A stretch of DNA of 64,000 nucleotides from the NCBI RefSeq assembly GCF_001989615.1, contig NZ_CP019067.1:3162001-3226000 (forward strand), read 5' to 3'. This stretch comes from Halorientalis sp. IM1011. Lineage in GTDB: Archaea > Halobacteriota > Halobacteria > Halobacteriales > Haloarculaceae. Below the pieces are notes generated by a model that saw only the letters and a list, made by a program, of their open reading frames with translations, was not told the DNA's origin and ran no database searches. The position numbers were made by a program, and so were the translations under genes. Numbering within the stretch: position 1 is the first letter of the stretch; every line of letters begins with the position of its first letter. Below, in pieces: positions 29,589 through 38,633 of this stretch.

Positions 29589-30809
29589 TTACGACACGCC
29601 GAGCTGTTTGGCGACGGTGTTGAGCTGGATCTCGTCGGTGCCCTCCACCACGCGCAGGATCCGGGCGACGTGGAGGTGGTCCATGAACGGGTTGTCCTCC
29701 GAGAGCCCGTTCGCGCCGTGGACCTGCACCACGTCGTCGGCGATGTCGAAGTAGACGTTCGACGCGAAATATTTGAAGATCGAAGCCTCCTCGATGGCCT
29801 GTTCGCCCTCGTCCATCAGCCAGGCGAGTTTCAGTCCGGCGGCATCGGCGGCGAAGTTCCGTGCCCGTCCCTCCGCGAGTTTGTGGGAGATGCCCTGGAA
29901 CTTCCCGATCGGCCGGCCGAACGCCTCCCGCTCGTTGGCGTATTCGACACCCTGCTCGATGAGGTGCTCGGCGTACCCAACTGCCTCCGCCCCGAGTTCG
30001 AGCCGCCCGAGCGAGAGGAAGTCCATGGCGTTGTAGAAGGCGGTGTCGGGCTGGCCGAGCACCCGGTCCTCACCGAGGCGCACGTCGTCGAAGATAAGTT
30101 CGGCCTGCATGCCCTTCATTCCGACCGCGTTGTTCATCGACCCCAGTTCGAACTCGTCGGCCTCGACGACGAAGCAGGTGATCCCGCCGTAGCGCCCGGC
30201 CTCCTCCTGGGGTGTCGTTCGCGCGAACACCTGCACGAAGTCGGCGTAGGGGGCGTTCGTGATCCACTGTTTCTGGCCGTTCAGTACCCACTCGTCGCCG
30301 TCCTTTCGAGCCCGGGTATCCATACTCGGTGAGTCCGACCCCACGCCGGGCTCTGTCTGGGCGAAGGCGGTCGATTTCTCGCCGGCGACGGCCGGCTCCA
30401 GATACTTCTCGACCTGCTCGCCCTCGGCTTGCAACAGGAGCGGCTTGGGGCCCTCCGGACCCGCGAGGACGTACTCGGTCAGGCCGATGCCGTGGCTGGC
30501 GACGTGTTTCTTCGCCCGGTACCAGGTGACGTTCGAGACGTCGTCCCCGCCGGCCTCCTCGGGGAGGTTCATCGCGTAGAAGCCCGCGTCGGCGCTTTTC
30601 TTCCGGATCCGCTCGATAGCGTCGACGACCTCCGGGACGAGCCGTCCGTCCTCCTCGTGGCGTAACTGCGGGTTCGACCACGTTTCGCCCAGTTCGTCTC
30701 TGACGGGTTCGACCTCTTGCTCGAGGAACTCGCTCAGACTGTCGAGGATGAGCCGGGTCTCCTCACCCGTTCCGAAGTCGACCGACGAGGCCGTGCCTTG
30801 TGTTGCCAT
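29589..30809 (-). CDS. Acyl-CoA dehydrogenase
   Basis: FAD-dependent alpha,beta-dehydrogenation of acyl-CoA, the first oxidative step of beta-oxidation or amino-acid catabolism. The 406-residue protein has the FAD/substrate motif AFAQTEPGVGSDSPSM, GQKQWITNAPYADFVQVFAR, and the C-terminal catalytic Glu in VVEGTDEIQLNTVAKQLG. Length fits the family. ATG 30807-30809 gives MATQGTASSVDFGTG. It stands alone, downstream of the giant surface gene on the same strand (135-base gap). Confidence 0.93.
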   Translation of the reverse strand: MATQGTASSVDFGTGEETRLILDSLSEFLEQEVEPVRDELGETWSNPQLRHEEDGRLVPEVVDAIERIRKKSADAGFYAMNLPEEAGGDDVSNVTWYRAKKHVASHGIGLTEYVLAGPEGPKPLLLQAEGEQVEKYLEPAVAGEKSTAFAQTEPGVGSDSPSMDTRARKDGDEWVLNGQKQWITNAPYADFVQVFARTTPQEEAGRYGGITCFVVEADEFELGSMNNAVGMKGMQAELIFDDVRLGEDRVLGQPDTAFYNAMDFLSLGRLELGAEAVGYAEHLIEQGVEYANEREAFGRPIGKFQGISHKLAEGRARNFAADAAGLKLAWLMDEGEQAIEEASIFKYFASNVYFDIADDVVQVHGANGLSEDNPFMDHLHVARILRVVEGTDEIQLNTVAKQLGVS

Positions 30810-30944
30810 AGCCCAACGGTACGCCCGCCCCCGCTTGAATCCACCGCCTCGTGAGAGGGGCGGCGTTATCATCGGCCCCGCCGCGGTGTACTCATCGCAA
30901 CCGTCGGCAGTCCGATCTCAGGTCCCGAATGCCCGGGTCTCGGC

Positions 30945-33900
30945 TCACCCGGGCGTGGCCGGCGTCACGACTTCCATCTGCTCTGTTTCTTCGGGTTCTT
31001 CGGGTTCTTCGGGTTCTTCGGGTTCCTCTGGTTCTTCTGGCTCTTCGGGTTCCTCTGGTTCCTCCGGCTCTTCAGGTTCTTCAGGCTCCTCCGGTTCTTC
31101 GGGTTCTTCCGGCTCTTCGGGTTCTTCAGGCTCTTCAGGCTCTTCGGGTTCTTCCGGCTCTTCGGGTTCCTCTGGTTCCTCCGGCTCTTCAGGTTCTTCA
31201 GGCTCTTCGGGTTCTTCAGGCTCTTCTGGTTCTTCGGGCTCCTCTGTCTCTTCAGGTTCTTCAGTTTCGTCGGTCTCGTTGGGCTCTTCGGTCGTCGGGC
31301 CTTCGACTGAGATGGTCGCGACTCGTTCACCGTTTATCTGGACGATCCGGCCGTCGGTCGACTCGGCAGTCAGTTCGTACGTCCCGGGATCCAGATCGAT
31401 GGAGTTCGACTCGGTGGCCGCCACGTCGAGCGTCACGTTCTCGCCCTCCTCCGGCGAAGCGGTCACCGTTACTTCCTCCTCGTTCGGATTGTCGACGGTC
31501 AACGTCCCGTCGTCGACCGAGGCGTCCAGGCTCTCGAGGGCCGCCTCGATGGTCACCTCTGTCTCTGACTCGCCGTCGATAGTGACCGGGCGGTCCTCGG
31601 CCGTTCCAGTCACCGTGTACGACCCCGGTTCGAGCTCCTGGGTGACCTCCGCACCGGCTTCCACGTCGAAGGACACGTTCTCCCCCGATTCCGGTGTTGC
31701 GACGACGGTCGCATCGATCTCGCCGGGGTTCTCGATAGCGAGGACGTTGTCGGTCGTTGTAACGGCGAGGTCGAGCGGCTCGACCTCCTCCACCGTTACT
31801 TCGATCTCGGACTCGCCGTCGATGGGCACCGGCTCTCCTTCACCGGTCGCGGCCTCGACTGTGTAGGTGCCCGGCTCCAGCGTGGTCGTCGTCTCGTCGC
31901 CGGCCAGCACCTCTAGTGTCTGAATCGTGCCGCTCTCGTTACTTATCCTGACGAGTCTGAGCTCCTCGCTGGGGTTCTCGACCGTCAGTTCCTGGCCCGA
32001 CAGACTCGTTTCGAGGGACTCGAACTCCTCGACGGGCTGTACCTCGACGTCGAGTTCGTCCTCGCCGTTCAGCGTGACGGGGCGCTCGCTCTCGCTCTCG
32101 CCGGTGAGCGTGTAGTTGCCGGGATCGACCGTCTCGGTGACCGTCTCGCCCGGTTCCACGGTGACCGACACGTCCGCGTCGGTCGCGCTCACAGTGACGA
32201 CCGCGTCGCTCGGGTTGGCGACCGTCAGATTTTGGTCTTGGACGGTGACGTCGAGGTCGATGGATTCTGGTTGTTCCTCCTCGACGGTGAACTCGAAGGC
32301 CTCGTCGCCGTCGATCAGGACCGATCGGTTATCGTCGCTCTCGGCCGTCACGGTGTAATTACCCGGATCGAACGACTCGGTAGCCGTCTCGCCGGCCGGT
32401 ACGTCGATCGTCTGGTTCTCACCGTCTTCGGGCTCGACGGTCGCCGTGACGGAGGCGTTACTCGGGTTCTCGAGGGTGAGCGTGTCGTTCTCCACGGACG
32501 CGTTCAGCTCGATCGGTTCCTCGGGCTCGTCTTCCTCGACCGTGACGTTGTACGACTCCTCGCCGTTTAGCAGGACCGTCCGGTTCGTCTCGGGTTCTGT
32601 CTCACCGGTGAGGGTGTAGTTGCCCGGGGCGAGGCCCTGTGTCGCCGTTTCGCCTCCTGCCACGTCGAAGGTCTGTTCCTCGCCAGTCGCGTTCGTGGCC
32701 GTGACCACGACACCAGTGTCGCTGGGATTCTCGACGAGGATGTTTTCGTTCTCCACCGCCACGGCCAGTTCGATCGGCTCCCCGGGCTCGGCTTCCTCGA
32801 CGGTGAACTCGAAGGCCTCGTTGCCGTCGATCAGGACCTCTCGGTCGTCGTCGCTCTCGGCCGTCACGGTGTAGTTGCCCGGCTCGAAAGTCTCGCTGAC
32901 CGTCTCGTTAGCCGGCACTTCGACGGACCGGTTCTCGCCGTCTTCGGGCTCGACGGTCGCCGTGACGGAGGCGTTACTCGGGTTCTCGAGGGTGAGCGTG
33001 TCGTTCTCGACCGACGCGTCGAGGTCGAGCGCCGAGACCGCTTCCGTACGAACGGGCACGTAGACACCGCTCTCGGACAGCGTGGCTTGGAGTGCGTCAC
33101 CCTCGTCGGTCACCGACCCGTTGGCCACGCGCTCCCACTCGCTGCCGTCGAAGCGCAGAAGGTCGACCTGTGCGGCGTCCGTTCCAGCTTCTAGCGGGAC
33201 GGTGACCGAAACCTGATTCTGGACGTTGGACACGTTGAAACCCGACTGGACGGCGGTCGCATTGTCGGGGAGATCCGGCAGCGACTCGTTGTCGACCGTG
33301 TCCAGAGTCACGGGTTCGCCGGTGAACTCGAACCTGGCCGCCGGCTCGAGGAACAGATCGGTCGCGTCGTAGGGCTCCGGTCCCAGGGAATCGTCGAAGC
33401 CGACCTCAGGCCCGGGGTGACCACGGACGGTGACGTTCTGTAACCGCTGGTCGTCCGCGCCCCGGAACCTGAATCCGAGTTCTCCGTTGTCCGTTATCCG
33501 GGAATCCTGGAACTGGTTCGCACCGCTGTCGGTCAGCCCGATACCGTCCCCGGCGTTCCCGTCGGCCGTCACCGCCTCGAAGGTGTTGTTCGAGATCACG
33601 GACCCGTACAGTCCGTCGCCGCCGTTGTTCGCGACTCGGATCTCGGTGAACTCGCTGTCGGAGGCCTGATCCCAGAGGTGGATCCCGTAATTTCCGTTAT
33701 CGGTCGCCGTGACGTCGGTGAACGACAGGTCCGTGCTCTCCCAGACCGTGATGCCGACACCGTCGGTACCGCTTGCGGTCACGTTCTCGACCGTCGATCC
33801 GTCGGCGTTGACCAGGAAAATCCCGTCTCCGACGTTGTCGGTGACCGCGACGTCTTCGATCGTCCCCTGGACACCGATGTCGTCGCTGAAGTTACTGAAG

Positions 33901-36900
33901 TAGACACCGGTCCCCCAGTTCTCGGCTTCGAGGTTCCGGATCGTGACGTTTTCGATCTCGTCGATCTCCGGGCCGTACACCGCCACGCCGATACTGTCGT
34001 TGCTCCCGGCACCCGAGACGGTGTTGCCGTTCCCGCTGAGGGTCACGTCACTCGACGCGATCCGGATGCAGGTTCCCTCGGTGTCCGAGGAGATGTCCGA
34101 GGTGAGTTCGTACTCGCCCGACTGGTCTATCACGGTGCAGGAGTCGATCTGCCGCGTCGGAGCCGCTGGCTGGATGGTTACCGTGAAGGTATCCTGTCCT
34201 TCGAAGGTGACGGTTTGGTCGCCCTCCATGGGTTCGCCCGTGAGGGTGTAGTTACCCGGATCGAACGCTGCGGTGACGGCCTCCCCCGCGGGAACCTCGA
34301 ATGTCCCGTTCTCGCCGGTTTCGGGCGCGGCCGTCACGGTGACCCCGGTCTCGCTGGGGTTCTCGACGGTGACGTTTTGGCCCTCGACGGACACGTTCAG
34401 GTCGATATCGCCCGGCTCGGGGCCTGTGACCGAGAACTCGAACGTCTCGTTCCCGTCGATTGTGACGGTCCGGTTCTCGTCGGACTCAGCGGTCACGGTG
34501 TAGTTCCCGGCCGGGAACGTCTCGGTCACCGACGCACCCGCGGGGACGTCGAACGTCTGCTCCTCGCCGTCCTCACCGGCCACGGTTGCCGTGACCGAGG
34601 CGTTGCTCGGATTTTCGAGGGTCAGGTTCCCCGCGTCTACCGACGCGGCGAGGTCGATGGCCGGCCCGGGTTCCTCCGCAGGTTCGACGGTGAACTCGAA
34701 CGCCTCGTCGCCGTTGATCGTGACCGTCCGGTTCTCGTCGGCGGCCACGGTCACGGTGTACTCCCCGGGATCGAACGACTCCTCGACGGTCTCGCCGGCC
34801 GCCACGTCGAGCGTCTGCTCTTCGCCCTCCTCGTCGGTCACCGTGGCGGTGACGGAGGCGTTCCCGGGGTTCTCGATGGAGAGGGTCCCGTTCGTCACCG
34901 TCGCGTTCAGGTCGATCGGCCCGGGTTCGTCGGGCTGGTCGGGCCCGTCCTCGACGGTCAACTCGTACTCGTCCTCACCTTCGACGGGGAGGGTGCTCCC
35001 GTCCTCGCCCTCCGCGGTGAGGACGTAGGTCCCCGGATCGAACCGCTGGGTGACGTCCCAGTTCGACGGCACGTCGAAGGTCCGGACCGTCTCACCGTCC
35101 TGACTGGCGGTCACGGTGACCCGCTGGTCGTTCGGGTTCTGGACCGTGACCGACTGTCCGTCGACGGTCACGTCCAGACTCAGGTCCTCGGGCCCGACGC
35201 CGATTCGGAGTTCAGTCCGGCCACCGACCTCGACGTCTTCGCCGTCGGCGGTCTGGGCGGTGAGCGTGTACAGCCCAGGTTCGAGGTCGACAGTCCGCTG
35301 CTCGCCGGCCGACAGCGTCTCGGACTGCACCTCGCCGTCCTCGGTGGTGATCGTCACGGTCACGGCCTCGTCGTTCGGGTTCGCGAGGAAGACGCCGTCG
35401 TCACGACCGTCCGCGAACAGGCTTCGCAGGTCGGGTTCGTCGTCGGGGGCCGCCTCATCGTCGTCGGGCCGGTCGGCCGTCCCGCGTGCGTAGTTGATGA
35501 TCGTCTGCTCGTTGGTGATGTCGATATCAGCGACGATCGACGCCGTGTCGGCGGCGGCCCGCTCGGTGACCACCTGGATCTGTTCGACACTCACCTGCTG
35601 GCGCTGGCTGAGCGAGACGGCTCCCTCACAGGCCCCCTTCGCGGCGGACTGGATCTGTGAGACGCTGGCCGACTGGTACTGGGTGAGCGCGCCACCGGCC
35701 GCGCTCCGCGCGATGACCTGCACCTGAACGATATTCACCTGCTGGATCTGGATCACGGCACCGCTGCCGGCTCCTCTCGCGGCGGCCTGAATCTGTTCGA
35801 CGTTTACGATCTGTTCCTGGGCGGCCGTGCTGGCGGCTCCCTCGGCCGCGCCGAACGACGCCTGTTGTATCTGGACGACGTTCACCTGCTGGATCTGGGT
35901 CAGCGAGCCCTCGGCGGCCCCCGAGGCGGCCGACTGGATCTGGGTGATCGTCGCGGACTGGTACTGCGAGATGGCTCCGCCTGCGGCCCCCGAGGCGGCC
36001 GACTGTATCTGGGTGACGGAGACCCGCTGGCTCTGGGTCAGTGACCCCTCGGTCCCGCCCCGTGCGGCGGCCTGGATCTGCGTGACTTCGGCCTGCTGGC
36101 GCTGGACGATCGAACCCTTGGCACCGCCCATGGCGGCTTCCTGGACCTTCTTCGCGTCGGCCTCGTCACCGCTCGCTCCGCCGGCAGCGCCGCCGAAGGC
36201 CGCGGCCTGGACCTGTCTGACGCTGACCGTCTGGTTCTGGACGAGCGAGCCGTAGGCCGCTCCCTGGGCCGCCTCCTGGATCTGTGAGACGCGGACCGCC
36301 TGGCGCTGGGTGACGTTCGCCCCCTGCGTGTCGGTTTCGTTGGGCTGCTCGTCTTGCTCCTCACTATCGTCGTCGGCCGTCTCGTCACACGCGCCCGCGG
36401 CCGCCCCGGCCGCGGCGTACTGGATCTGGGTGACGTTCACCCGCTGTGACTGGGCGACCGCGCCGTGGGCCCCGCCGTAGCTCGCGCTCTGCATCTGGGT
36501 GGCGGTGGCGTTCTGGGCCTGCGTCAGCGACCCCACCGTCCCGCCGAAGACCCCGGCCTGGACCTGCGTGACGTTCGCTCGCTGGCTCTGGACGAGCGCG
36601 CCGTGGGCGGCCCCTTTGGCGGCGGATCGGATCTCGTCGGCACTCGCGTCGTGATCTTGACTCGCCGCCCGGACGGCTGCCTCGACGGCTGCCTGGCGTT
36701 CCTCCTCGGATATCGAGACGCCCTGCTGTTCCGCCAGTTCGGCACCGGCCCGGGCTCCTTCCCGTGCGGCTTCCGTCTCCGCTTGGCCGACTTGTGCCGT
36801 TCCGTTCGCGCCGGGACTGTTCTCGGCTTCGACCACTCCCTCGCCGGCCGTCGCGCTCGCGAGTTCGTCCAGTTCCGTCGCAATTTGATCACTCCCGTTC

Positions 36901-37025
36901 GCCTGTGCGACCGACGCGTCGTCCGCCGCGGGCCCGCTCGCGCCAGCAGCGACACTGGCGAGGCCGGCCAGCGAAGCGACGAGTACGACGACGAGGACGA
37001 ACTGCCGATCGGGGCGACGGGTCAT
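30945..37025 (-). CDS. Giant secreted repeat protein (Gln/Gly/Ala repeats, beta-sandwich repeats, beta-helix, Glu-Pro stalk)
   Basis: A 2026-residue predicted secreted protein. Residues 1-28 form a signal peptide (RRPDRQFVLVVVLVASLAG). Residues 136-500 hold about fourteen 23-residue repeats of type VxVxQIQxAAxGAAxGxxxQ. Residues 545-955 and 1332-1910 hold twelve repeats of about 80 residues, each with LENPSNASVTATVxxEDGE, FDPGNYTVTAES and DGxEAFEFTV, like small Ig/PEGA-type sandwiches. Residues 959-1225 form a right-handed beta-helix (CTVIDQSGEYELTSDISS, NVTIRNLEAENWGTGVYF). Residues 1912-2011 are about thirty EEP units, and the last bases encode VVTPATPG with no membrane anchor. NxS/T sites are abundant. 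The role may be adhesion or matrix; this is inference. Confidence 0.88.
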   Translation of the reverse strand: MTRRPDRQFVLVVVLVASLAGLASVAAGASGPAADDASVAQANGSDQIATELDELASATAGEGVVEAENSPGANGTAQVGQAETEAAREGARAGAELAEQQGVSISEEERQAAVEAAVRAASQDHDASADEIRSAAKGAAHGALVQSQRANVTQVQAGVFGGTVGSLTQAQNATATQMQSASYGGAHGAVAQSQRVNVTQIQYAAAGAAAGACDETADDDSEEQDEQPNETDTQGANVTQRQAVRVSQIQEAAQGAAYGSLVQNQTVSVRQVQAAAFGGAAGGASGDEADAKKVQEAAMGGAKGSIVQRQQAEVTQIQAAARGGTEGSLTQSQRVSVTQIQSAASGAAGGAISQYQSATITQIQSAASGAAEGSLTQIQQVNVVQIQQASFGAAEGAASTAAQEQIVNVEQIQAAARGAGSGAVIQIQQVNIVQVQVIARSAAGGALTQYQSASVSQIQSAAKGACEGAVSLSQRQQVSVEQIQVVTERAAADTASIVADIDITNEQTIINYARGTADRPDDDEAAPDDEPDLRSLFADGRDDGVFLANPNDEAVTVTITTEDGEVQSETLSAGEQRTVDLEPGLYTLTAQTADGEDVEVGGRTELRIGVGPEDLSLDVTVDGQSVTVQNPNDQRVTVTASQDGETVRTFDVPSNWDVTQRFDPGTYVLTAEGEDGSTLPVEGEDEYELTVEDGPDQPDEPGPIDLNATVTNGTLSIENPGNASVTATVTDEEGEEQTLDVAAGETVEESFDPGEYTVTVAADENRTVTINGDEAFEFTVEPAEEPGPAIDLAASVDAGNLTLENPSNASVTATVAGEDGEEQTFDVPAGASVTETFPAGNYTVTAESDENRTVTIDGNETFEFSVTGPEPGDIDLNVSVEGQNVTVENPSETGVTVTAAPETGENGTFEVPAGEAVTAAFDPGNYTLTGEPMEGDQTVTFEGQDTFTVTIQPAAPTRQIDSCTVIDQSGEYELTSDISSDTEGTCIRIASSDVTLSGNGNTVSGAGSNDSIGVAVYGPEIDEIENVTIRNLEAENWGTGVYFSNFSDDIGVQGTIEDVAVTDNVGDGIFLVNADGSTVENVTASGTDGVGITVWESTDLSFTDVTATDNGNYGIHLWDQASDSEFTEIRVANNGGDGLYGSVISNNTFEAVTADGNAGDGIGLTDSGANQFQDSRITDNGELGFRFRGADDQRLQNVTVRGHPGPEVGFDDSLGPEPYDATDLFLEPAARFEFTGEPVTLDTVDNESLPDLPDNATAVQSGFNVSNVQNQVSVTVPLEAGTDAAQVDLLRFDGSEWERVANGSVTDEGDALQATLSESGVYVPVRTEAVSALDLDASVENDTLTLENPSNASVTATVEPEDGENRSVEVPANETVSETFEPGNYTVTAESDDDREVLIDGNEAFEFTVEEAEPGEPIELAVAVENENILVENPSDTGVVVTATNATGEEQTFDVAGGETATQGLAPGNYTLTGETEPETNRTVLLNGEESYNVTVEEDEPEEPIELNASVENDTLTLENPSNASVTATVEPEDGENQTIDVPAGETATESFDPGNYTVTAESDDNRSVLIDGDEAFEFTVEEEQPESIDLDVTVQDQNLTVANPSDAVVTVSATDADVSVTVEPGETVTETVDPGNYTLTGESESERPVTLNGEDELDVEVQPVEEFESLETSLSGQELTVENPSEELRLVRISNESGTIQTLEVLAGDETTTTLEPGTYTVEAATGEGEPVPIDGESEIEVTVEEVEPLDLAVTTTDNVLAIENPGEIDATVVATPESGENVSFDVEAGAEVTQELEPGSYTVTGTAEDRPVTIDGESETEVTIEAALESLDASVDDGTLTVDNPNEEEVTVTASPEEGENVTLDVAATESNSIDLDPGTYELTAESTDGRIVQINGERVATISVEGPTTEEPNETDETEEPEETEEPEEPEEPEEPEEPEEPEEPEEPEEPEEPEEPEEPEEPEEPEEPEEPEEPEEPEEPEEPEEPEEPEEPEEPEEPEEPEEPEEPEETEQMEVVTPATPG
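30978..31292 (-). repeat. 9-bp tandem minisatellite encoding the Glu-Glu-Pro stalk
   Basis: About thirty tandem units of a 9-base repeat (gaagarccn on the coding strand) at the 3' end of the giant gene encode EEP triplets, with occasional EET. The unit is a codon multiple, so slippage would change stalk length in frame. Third-base variation (ggg/ggc/gga, ttc/tct) between units shows that the array is not all recent. Confidence 0.9.
32422..33008 (-). repeat. Exact 71-bp direct duplication between two beta-sandwich repeats
   Basis: Bases 32422-32492 and 32938-33008 are identical over 71 bases, 516 bases (172 codons, two repeat units) apart within the giant gene. They encode the same part of the units at residues about 1333-1410 and 1504-1582. 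Other units differ at the nucleotide level, so this is a recent duplication or gene conversion. Confidence 0.85.
35526..36620 (-). repeat. Gln-Ile-Gln/Gly-Ala 23-residue repeat region of the giant protein
   Basis: Coding region of residues 136-500. Units align as a short strand-like V-x-V-x-Q-I-Q followed by a small-residue stretch S-A-A-x-G-A-A-x-G-x-x-x-Q-x-Q. Two units are interrupted, one by an acidic linker (about residues 213-236) and one by GASGDEADAKK. The repeats carry very little charge in a haloarchaeal protein, which is exceptional. They recall the spacing of Gln and Gly in curli-type amyloid repeats, but no direct family match is claimed. Confidence 0.85.
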
Positions 37026-37096
37026 CCGTCCCTCCGTGGCGTGGGCCGGTCGAGTTCTGGCGATCGATGCGTCCGTGTCGGTACGTTGACGTCCAT
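37022..37096 (-). CDS. Possible 24-codon leader frame overlapping the giant gene start
   Basis: ATG 37094-37096 opens a frame of 24 codons (MDVNVPTRTHRSPELDRPTP and four more). It ends in a TGA whose bases overlap the ATG of the giant gene (37023-37025). Such an overlap allows translational coupling. Codon use and composition (basic, Pro/Arg/Thr) are not convincing for a functional peptide, so this is a weak call resting on geometry. Confidence 0.2.
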   Translation of the reverse strand: MDVNVPTRTHRSPELDRPTPRRDG

Positions 37097-37466
37097 GTGA
37101 AAGTCCCCCTGTGTACGGTAATGCCGCGTCTCCCCCACGTACTCCGAAGCCACTAGTAAAGCCGATAGACCGTTTCGAGACTCCCGCTCGATACGCCACT
37201 GGCCGAAACTTCTCACAACAGTTGCCCACTGGCACAGGCCGACCGTACACGCGTCAATCGTCGTGACGGACATCGTACCGAACAGTTCCCGTGACTCAGG
37301 AACGGATTCGGTAATTCACACCGAGCGACGGTGGAATCCGACCCCGACGCACGGTTCCAGGTAGGTAACGACGGCTTCACGACGGTAGGTCGATCCTTGG
37401 GCCGAACCGCTGTCAGGTGCGACGGTCGTGGCTCACGCTTTTGTCACTGGCCCGTGGACTCCCTCC
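37026..37466. other. 441-base divergent intergenic region
   Basis: It separates the giant gene (minus) from the CaiB gene (plus). For the minus strand there is a TATA-like tttactag at about 37154-37161, giving a predicted 5' leader of roughly 100 bases that contains the small frame at 37022-37096. For the plus strand a cttttgtc stretch at 37438-37445 lies about 25 bases before the CaiB ATG. The middle (37200-37380) is less GC-rich than the genes and holds no open frame of credible coding character, no RNA gene and no clear repeat. Confidence 0.6.
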
Positions 37467-38633
37467 ATGCGACTCGATGGAGTACGCGTGCTCGACCTCT
37501 CTCGATTGCTGCCCGGCCCATACGCGACGCAACTGCTCGCCGACGCCGGCGCGGACGTGATCAAGGTCGAGGACACGGACGCTGGCGACTACGCGCGGAT
37601 CCTCCCGCCCTACACGGAGACGGGCGTCGGTGCAATCTTCGACGCCGTCAACCGCGGGAAACGAAGCGTCGCTCTCGACCTCAAGTCCGCCCGTGGCCGC
37701 GAGGCCTTCCTCGATATGGCCGCCGAGGCCGACGTGGTGTTCGAGCAGTTCCGCCCCGGCGTCGTCGACCGCCTCGGCGTCGACTACGCGGCCGTCCGCG
37801 AGGTCAACGAAGACGTTATCTACTGCTCGCTCTCGGGGTTCGGACAGGACGGTCCCCACGCCGACCGTGTCGGGCACGACCTCAACTACGTCGGCATGGC
37901 CGGCCTGCTCGACATGACCCGGGCGGACGAGGACAGCACGCCACAGATGCCGGGCTACCCCGTCGGCGACATGGCCGGCGGCCTCTTCGCCGCCTTCTCC
38001 GTCGTCGGAGCCTTGCTCTCGCGGGAACTGGGCAACACCGGCGGGGAGTACGTCGACGTGGCGATGACCGACGTGGTGGCCTCCTTCTCGCAGGCCGTTT
38101 CCCACGACGCGCTCACCGGCGCTGACCCTCGCCCCGGCGAGACGGAACTCTCCGGCGGCCTGCCCTGGTACGACACCTACGAGACCGCCGACGGAAAGTA
38201 CGTCACGCTCGCAGCCCTCGAACCCAAGTTCTGGGAGACCTTCTGTGAGGCGGTCGGCCGTCCGGACCTCACCGATGCGCACATGACTGGTGATCCGGCC
38301 GAACGCGAGGCCGTCCGTGAAGAACTCGAAACCCTGTTCGCCGAACGGACCCGCGACGAGTGGGAGTCGGAACTGGGAGACACCGAGGCGATGGTCGCGC
38401 CGGTCAGATCGCCGGCCGAAGCGCTCGACAGCGAGGCCGCGGACGCCCGGGACCTGATCGACCGCTCCGGGACTATCCCACGGGTTACCTTCCCTGCCCA
38501 GTCCACGGCGGAACCGGAGGGGGTAGCCGGCTCCCCACCAAGCCACGGCGAACACACCGACGACGTGCTCGAAGCCGTGGGCTACGACGCGGACCGGATC
38601 GCGGCGCTCCGCGAGGACGGCGTGATCGAGTAG
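37467..38633 (+). CDS. CaiB/BaiF-family (class III) CoA transferase
   Basis: Moves CoA between carboxylic acids. The 388-residue protein begins MRLDGVRVLDLSRLLPGPYA and has VIKVEDTDAGDYAR, NRGKRSVALDLKSARGREAF and VFEQFRPGVVDRLGVDY, all standard for the family. The expected catalytic Asp is in RVGHDLNYVGMAGLLDM, and PVGDMAGGLFAAFSVVGALL follows. Alpha-methylacyl-CoA racemase is in the same family and cannot be ruled out. The neighbouring LLM, SDR and acyl-CoA ligase genes suggest a catabolic acyl-CoA route. Confidence 0.93.
   Translation: MRLDGVRVLDLSRLLPGPYATQLLADAGADVIKVEDTDAGDYARILPPYTETGVGAIFDAVNRGKRSVALDLKSARGREAFLDMAAEADVVFEQFRPGVVDRLGVDYAAVREVNEDVIYCSLSGFGQDGPHADRVGHDLNYVGMAGLLDMTRADEDSTPQMPGYPVGDMAGGLFAAFSVVGALLSRELGNTGGEYVDVAMTDVVASFSQAVSHDALTGADPRPGETELSGGLPWYDTYETADGKYVTLAALEPKFWETFCEAVGRPDLTDAHMTGDPAEREAVREELETLFAERTRDEWESELGDTEAMVAPVRSPAEALDSEAADARDLIDRSGTIPRVTFPAQSTAEPEGVAGSPPSHGEHTDDVLEAVGYDADRIAALREDGVIE

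Follow-up and report, generated by a model that had tools for sequence, protein, structure and literature searches.

What is a very large secreted protein, built from repeats and encoded by a gene that stands alone, doing in a haloarchaeon? The question is raised by a 64,000-nucleotide stretch of the Halorientalis sp. IM1011 genome (contig NZ_CP019067.1, positions 3,162,001 to 3,226,000; hereafter the window), in which one gene encodes a protein of 2026 residues that runs from a signal peptide through a repeat block (QIQ), five beta-sandwich repeats, a right-handed beta-helix, and seven further sandwich repeats to a Glu-Glu-Pro stalk. This block order was proposed in a first-pass annotation made from the sequence alone, and it is borne out by the open reading frame (ORF), by hidden Markov models (HMMs), by Pfam, and by AlphaFold2. 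The same annotation implied that the combination was unique, which it is not: QIQ is widespread, and at least seven other genomes also show the order QIQ–sandwiches–beta-helix. The window protein is real and interesting, but less singular than it first appeared.

The QIQ block repeats with a unit of 23 residues, its self-identity reaching 30% at a lag of 23 and 25.5% at a lag of 46, against a maximum of 17% at any lag in 500 shuffles. The repeat had been recognized correctly at first pass, but the length given then, 365 residues, was too short for the span that the family HMM recovers. Aligned with seven relatives from several families, the block shows 49–60% identity and about 80 invariant columns; it is therefore a conserved domain rather than drifting low-complexity sequence. 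Searches of Pfam, NCBIfam, and the PDB returned no model or sequence that covers it, and no paper on the family was found in the literature on DUF7282, haloarchaeal adhesins, secretomes, and solenoids. AlphaFold2, run with 40 family members, predicts 18 helices, mostly of about 17 residues and separated by short loops, with a predicted local distance difference test score (pLDDT) of 85.4 and a predicted template modeling score (pTM) of 0.80. Foldseek against the PDB returned generic helical repeats only: TALE and designed proteins such as 8ugc resemble QIQ in their helix-turn-helix stacking, but at template modeling scores of at most 0.27 (query-normalized), and QIQ differs from them in its one-helix unit, its extracellular setting, and the lack of any sequence match.

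A QIQ profile built from eight rows, including the window sequence (A1; E=4e-175 in its own genome), matches 120 of 392 Halobacteriales genomes, from 35 of 95 genera, and a sample of 295 genomes from across the phylum gave 13 matches, all within Halobacteriales. Scanned against genome contigs, the profile recovers 62 loci, all haloarchaeal; a single-sequence scan of the same contigs gave no match. Nearly all proteins from these loci start with a hydrophobic, signal-like stretch, the start codon having been picked with that in view, and plasmid-borne relatives are annotated "hypothetical protein." By sequence, QIQ is a widespread haloarchaeal module, conserved yet unnamed.

What follows QIQ differs between lineages. 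The Haloarculaceae proteins carry sandwiches with or without a beta-helix; those of Halobaculum and Halorarius carry TSP3 repeats and sandwiches; one scanned member of the Natrialbaceae (L039) carries DUF7282 and CARDB; and those of Haladaptatus and Halomicrococcus end in a short Thr-rich tail. The order of the window protein as far as the beta-helix is found again in Halosimplex pelagicum, H. aquaticum, Haloarcula rara, Haloarculaceae H-GB1-1, and three more Haloarculaceae, and the H. pelagicum protein (1742 aa; L020) is collinear over residues 125–1495 at 39.7% identity and likewise has its beta-helix between sandwiches; an architecture exclusive to the window protein was accordingly rejected. 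This protein and those of H. aquaticum (L027), Haloarcula rara (L051), and H-GB1-1 (L038) share with the window protein the signal, QIQ, the sandwiches, and the beta-helix, with or without further sandwiches. They differ in having three to eight sandwiches by HMM, against 12, and a stalk that, where present, is Thr/Pro-rich instead of Glu-Glu-Pro. The first-pass annotation had allowed that the full architecture might belong to a characterized family; it does recur, but no characterized member was found. Several observations stand apart from this comparison. One Halorarius protein (L069:6692-12085) combines TSP3 repeats with a CAP domain and a C-terminal transmembrane (TM) segment. Most matching Natrialbaceae genomes list one QIQ protein, of about 1300–1700 aa, and Natronorubrum texcoconense has a second, of 505 aa (L081:6860-8374), whose N-terminus (LSRRTLL) looks Tat-like, unlike the rest of the family. 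Family f17 has four or five QIQ matches in G062, G134, G194, G211, and G215, partly on separate contigs, which suggests paralogues.

Within Halorientalis the differences can be followed at a single site, since the gene always lies between those for an acyl-CoA dehydrogenase and a CoA-transferase in the four species that carry it. At this locus, G005 encodes a protein of 706 aa with one sandwich, H. pallida one of 808 aa with one sandwich and a TM anchor, and H. salina one of 1013 aa with six sandwiches, all three lacking a beta-helix, and the window protein has twelve sandwiches and the beta-helix. In G002, G004, G006, and G007 the site is empty, the flanking genes being adjacent and some 20–136 bp apart, and in G001 it holds an acyl-CoA synthetase-like ORF (identified by eye). 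Overall, the gene is accessory. Many clusters in the synteny comparison are antisense shadows of real genes rather than additional ones. Because QIQ is conserved and the parts behind it differ, the N-terminal domain is constant and the remainder exchanged; on the QIQ-domain tree the presence of the beta-helix requires seven changes (gains or losses), of which strongly supported branches force at least four. In the window's own 3.78-Mb genome the gene is present in single copy, the remaining matches being weak beta-helix ones. No phage match was found for it, and among its plasmid-borne relatives none spans 80% of the query.

The 12 sandwich repeats are of about 84 residues and start at 535, 616, 705, 791, and 875 ahead of the beta-helix and at 1334, 1419, 1506, 1590, 1670, 1752, and 1832 behind it. 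They match Pfam PLipase_C_C (PF05506; E=1e-24, 87.6 bits against a curated cut-off of 24.4), but a family scan found no catalytic phospholipase domain in the protein. The beta-helix scores 2.6e-17 with Beta_helix (PF13229) and 6e-14 with NosD. For residues 791–1420 (five sequences), AlphaFold2 gave sandwiches of about seven strands, a long, all-beta, right-handed beta-helix, and an additional beta domain, at pLDDT 85 (all five models 80–85) and pTM 0.52, the low pTM meaning that the relative placement of these domains is not fixed. Here as in QIQ, the prediction is of ordered structure and not of the disorder considered at first pass. A PDB fold search also places the beta part near phospholipase C-type and FnIII structures, an adhesin extender, a biofilm-associated protein domain, and RbmA. 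Cys 963 and Cys 986, where the beta-helix begins, are shared by all five proteins aligned, a pair that would suit an extracellular disulfide.

Export is indicated by the N-terminus, MTRRPDRQFVLVVVLVASLAGLASVAAGASG, which is signal-peptide-like and supports the secreted or surface nature first ascribed to the protein. Acidic residues number 437 in the whole protein and basic ones 60; such an acidic excess is expected for a halophile. The stalk contains 29 EEP triplets, and the tail ends in TPATPG* with no hydrophobic segment and neither a TM nor a PGF-CTERM anchor. The genome does encode archaeosortase A (ArtA), and at least 13 of its proteins score above cut-off as PGF-CTERM proteins, so the usual route of anchoring exists and goes unused by this protein. 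With haloarchaeal PGF-CTERM proteins (ArtA substrates of the S-layer type) it shares the Sec-type signal, sequons, and a low-complexity C-terminal stalk, differing in the lack of PGF motif and TM segment. The abundance of NxS/T sites reported at first pass is confirmed, at 52 sequons against 16 expected from shuffling. Thirty-three of the 52 lie in the sandwich blocks, where counts are not independent because the repeats are copied. The oligosaccharyltransferase AglB/STT3 is also encoded in the genome, and the protein is a putative N-glycoprotein.

Table 1. Coordinates in the window of the gene, the parts of its product, and the conserved flanking genes
Feature	Residues	Coordinates	Strand	Basis
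Whole gene, 2026-aa secreted mosaic protein		30945..37025	-	Uninterrupted ORF, ATG start, no internal stop
Signal peptide, Sec type, without lipobox	~1-29	36939..37025	-	Read from sequence; lipobox scan
QIQ block of unnamed family; one-helix repeats of 23 aa, predicted to form an antiparallel alpha-solenoid	81-519	35469..36785	-	Family HMM
Sandwich repeats 1-5, phospholipase C C-terminal-like/FnIII-like	535-958	34152..35423	-	Pfam, HMM, AlphaFold2
Right-handed beta-helix	959-1245	33291..34151	-	Pfam, AlphaFold2, PDB fold search
Extra beta domain behind beta-helix	1246-1333	33027..33290	-	Alignment and AlphaFold2
Sandwich repeats 6-12	1334-1912	31290..33026	-	HMM; repeat 6 folded in AlphaFold2
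Acidic (Glu-Glu-Pro)n stalk and tail TEQMEVVTPATPG, without TM anchor	1913-2026	30948..31289	-	Sequence, TM scan
Acyl-CoA dehydrogenase, conserved flank outside the protein		29589..30809	-	Likely start ATG 30809
CoA-transferase III, conserved flank outside the protein		37428..38633	+	Comparison of flanks

The neighbors of the gene in the window include an acyl-CoA dehydrogenase, a CoA-transferase III, Usp, Sir2, and others, consistent with the earlier remark that no secretion or adhesion genes adjoin it. The acyl-CoA dehydrogenase start listed in Table 1 (MATQG) is probable, matching relatives, rather than the one at 30872. Across Halorientalis, the space between the two conserved flanks (window gaps 30873-30944 and 37026-37427; L151-L155) either holds the whole gene or lacks it entirely. 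An antisense ORF (30748-31866, + strand, 372 aa) with SGS repeats mirrors the EEP stalk on the other strand and is probably no gene. The Natrialbaceae member with DUF7282 and CARDB is flanked by bioY/cbiQ-type energy-coupling factor transporter genes and by genes for DUF7545 and DUF5799. An operon partner conserved from family to family was looked for and not found.

The helical prediction for QIQ has to be weighed against a different fold. Gln/Ala/Gly repeats with alternating conservation are compatible with a curli-like beta-solenoid, and a coupling analysis independent of AlphaFold was therefore made on 675 distinct QIQ repeat units. If QIQ were such an amyloid, with ladders of Gln that AlphaFold2 misread as helices, the strand-like conservation of every second residue from position 14 to position 5 of the next repeat (L-x-Q-x-Q-x-V-x-V-x-Q-x-Q-x-A) would be accounted for, as would the i,i+2 coupling of positions 14–22, a pattern also expected of an extended linker. 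In positions 1–16, however, covariation is greatest at i,i+4 (0.045, versus 0.004 for i+2), and pairs 6-10, 8-12, and 7-11 are among the strongest within the repeat; the same-position coupling between adjacent repeats that in-register stacking of curli-type strands calls for is absent; and the commonest change in repeat spacing is +3 (to 26), about one helical turn. The strongest pairs between repeats include 13-6, 8-10, 6-11, and 10-7, as antiparallel helices would yield, and the signal summed over antiparallel diagonals is weak. Given also the 18 modeled helices, we regard the amyloid as very improbable. An antiparallel alpha-solenoid without close solved counterpart is instead the predicted and reasonably supported fold of QIQ.

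Two further explanations concern the remainder of the protein. In one, it would be a secreted polysaccharide-active enzyme, its beta-helix an epimerase or lyase, its sandwiches carbohydrate-binding, and QIQ a means of keeping the enzyme near the cell. The NosD and Beta_helix matches fit this, and in the PDB the beta-helix is nearest to AlgE4, AlgG, and tailspikes, sharing with these and with NosD/CASH proteins a common fold, though here it is set between sandwich arms. DPH is the catalytic motif of the alginate epimerases AlgE and AlgG, and a motif scan found it nowhere in the protein, so that the beta-helix is likelier to bind than to catalyze. Only five His residues occur in the entire protein, the sole Tyr/His segment of the beta-helix (NYGIHLWD) is not kept in relatives, and three syntenic orthologues dispense with the beta-helix altogether; an enzyme is in our view improbable. 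In the other, the ancestor would have been a TM-held adhesin with QIQ as its distal binding tip, as in H. pallida, and the window copy, ending where an anchor would begin, would be a shed form that has lost it. H. pallida indeed has, at the same locus, a stalk and TM segment with PPATPG upstream of the latter, and a C-terminal hydrophobic segment is found in 10 of the 77 relatives with a complete C-terminus (the window protein included), none of the 77 having a PGF motif. But the unanchored state is thus the majority one, two further members of the genus end in an acidic stalk without anchor, and no TM remnant lies downstream of the stop codon (three frames, by eye). A PGF-CTERM hidden behind a frameshift in the EEP tract was rejected on the same inspection. 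Loss of an anchor therefore seems doubtful, a little less so than catalysis.

The reading that we favor, as somewhat probable, is of a secreted, N-glycosylated adhesin or matrix scaffold defined by the QIQ domain, its specificity changed through module exchange. It is favored because QIQ is constant while the other modules differ and because the beta part matches the folds of RbmA, a biofilm-associated protein domain, and an adhesin extender; because sequons are enriched and AglB is present; and because an anchor is missing in 67 of the 77 relatives despite ArtA. From the computed parts, helical prediction, module exchange, and missing anchor we infer a possible biological role. A Sec-type signal would export the protein, and the QIQ solenoid, as the sole part common to all members, would do their shared job, either by assembling with itself or by docking at the surface of the cell. 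The sandwiches may serve as spacer arms and the optional beta-helix as a head that lacks catalytic activity, binds glycans, and determines the specificity of binding, with a charged or Thr/Pro stalk completing the modular layout. Most members, including the window protein, would either stay at the surface through contacts of QIQ or be released, the sequence alone being compatible with both. Several points weigh on the other side. Two of the five AlphaFold2 models of QIQ are poor (pLDDT 50 and 41); anchored relatives such as that of H. pallida would place QIQ at the outer tip, a position that suits a binding tip no less than an assembling base; the copies examined in Halorientalis and Natrialbaceae share no neighboring gene save a weak Usp-type match; and the literature search found no paper that treats the family in adhesion or matrix formation. 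A bolder version of the favored reading, in which QIQ is an undescribed, haloarchaea-only, extracellular alpha-solenoid that polymerizes or docks to the S-layer without a membrane anchor and carries swappable adhesive heads—anchor-free surface display—is one that we regard as unlikely.

Large, modular proteins that resemble adhesins were known before; what unites this family is the QIQ domain, which has no Pfam or NCBIfam entry and no solved relative. Found in about a third of sampled Halobacteriales genomes, it seems to be what the members of a secreted protein system have in common while their C-terminal parts are swapped between species, and it is a domain for annotators to name. For haloarchaeal surface biology, QIQ offers a defined target: why most members are unanchored though the same cells use archaeosortase.

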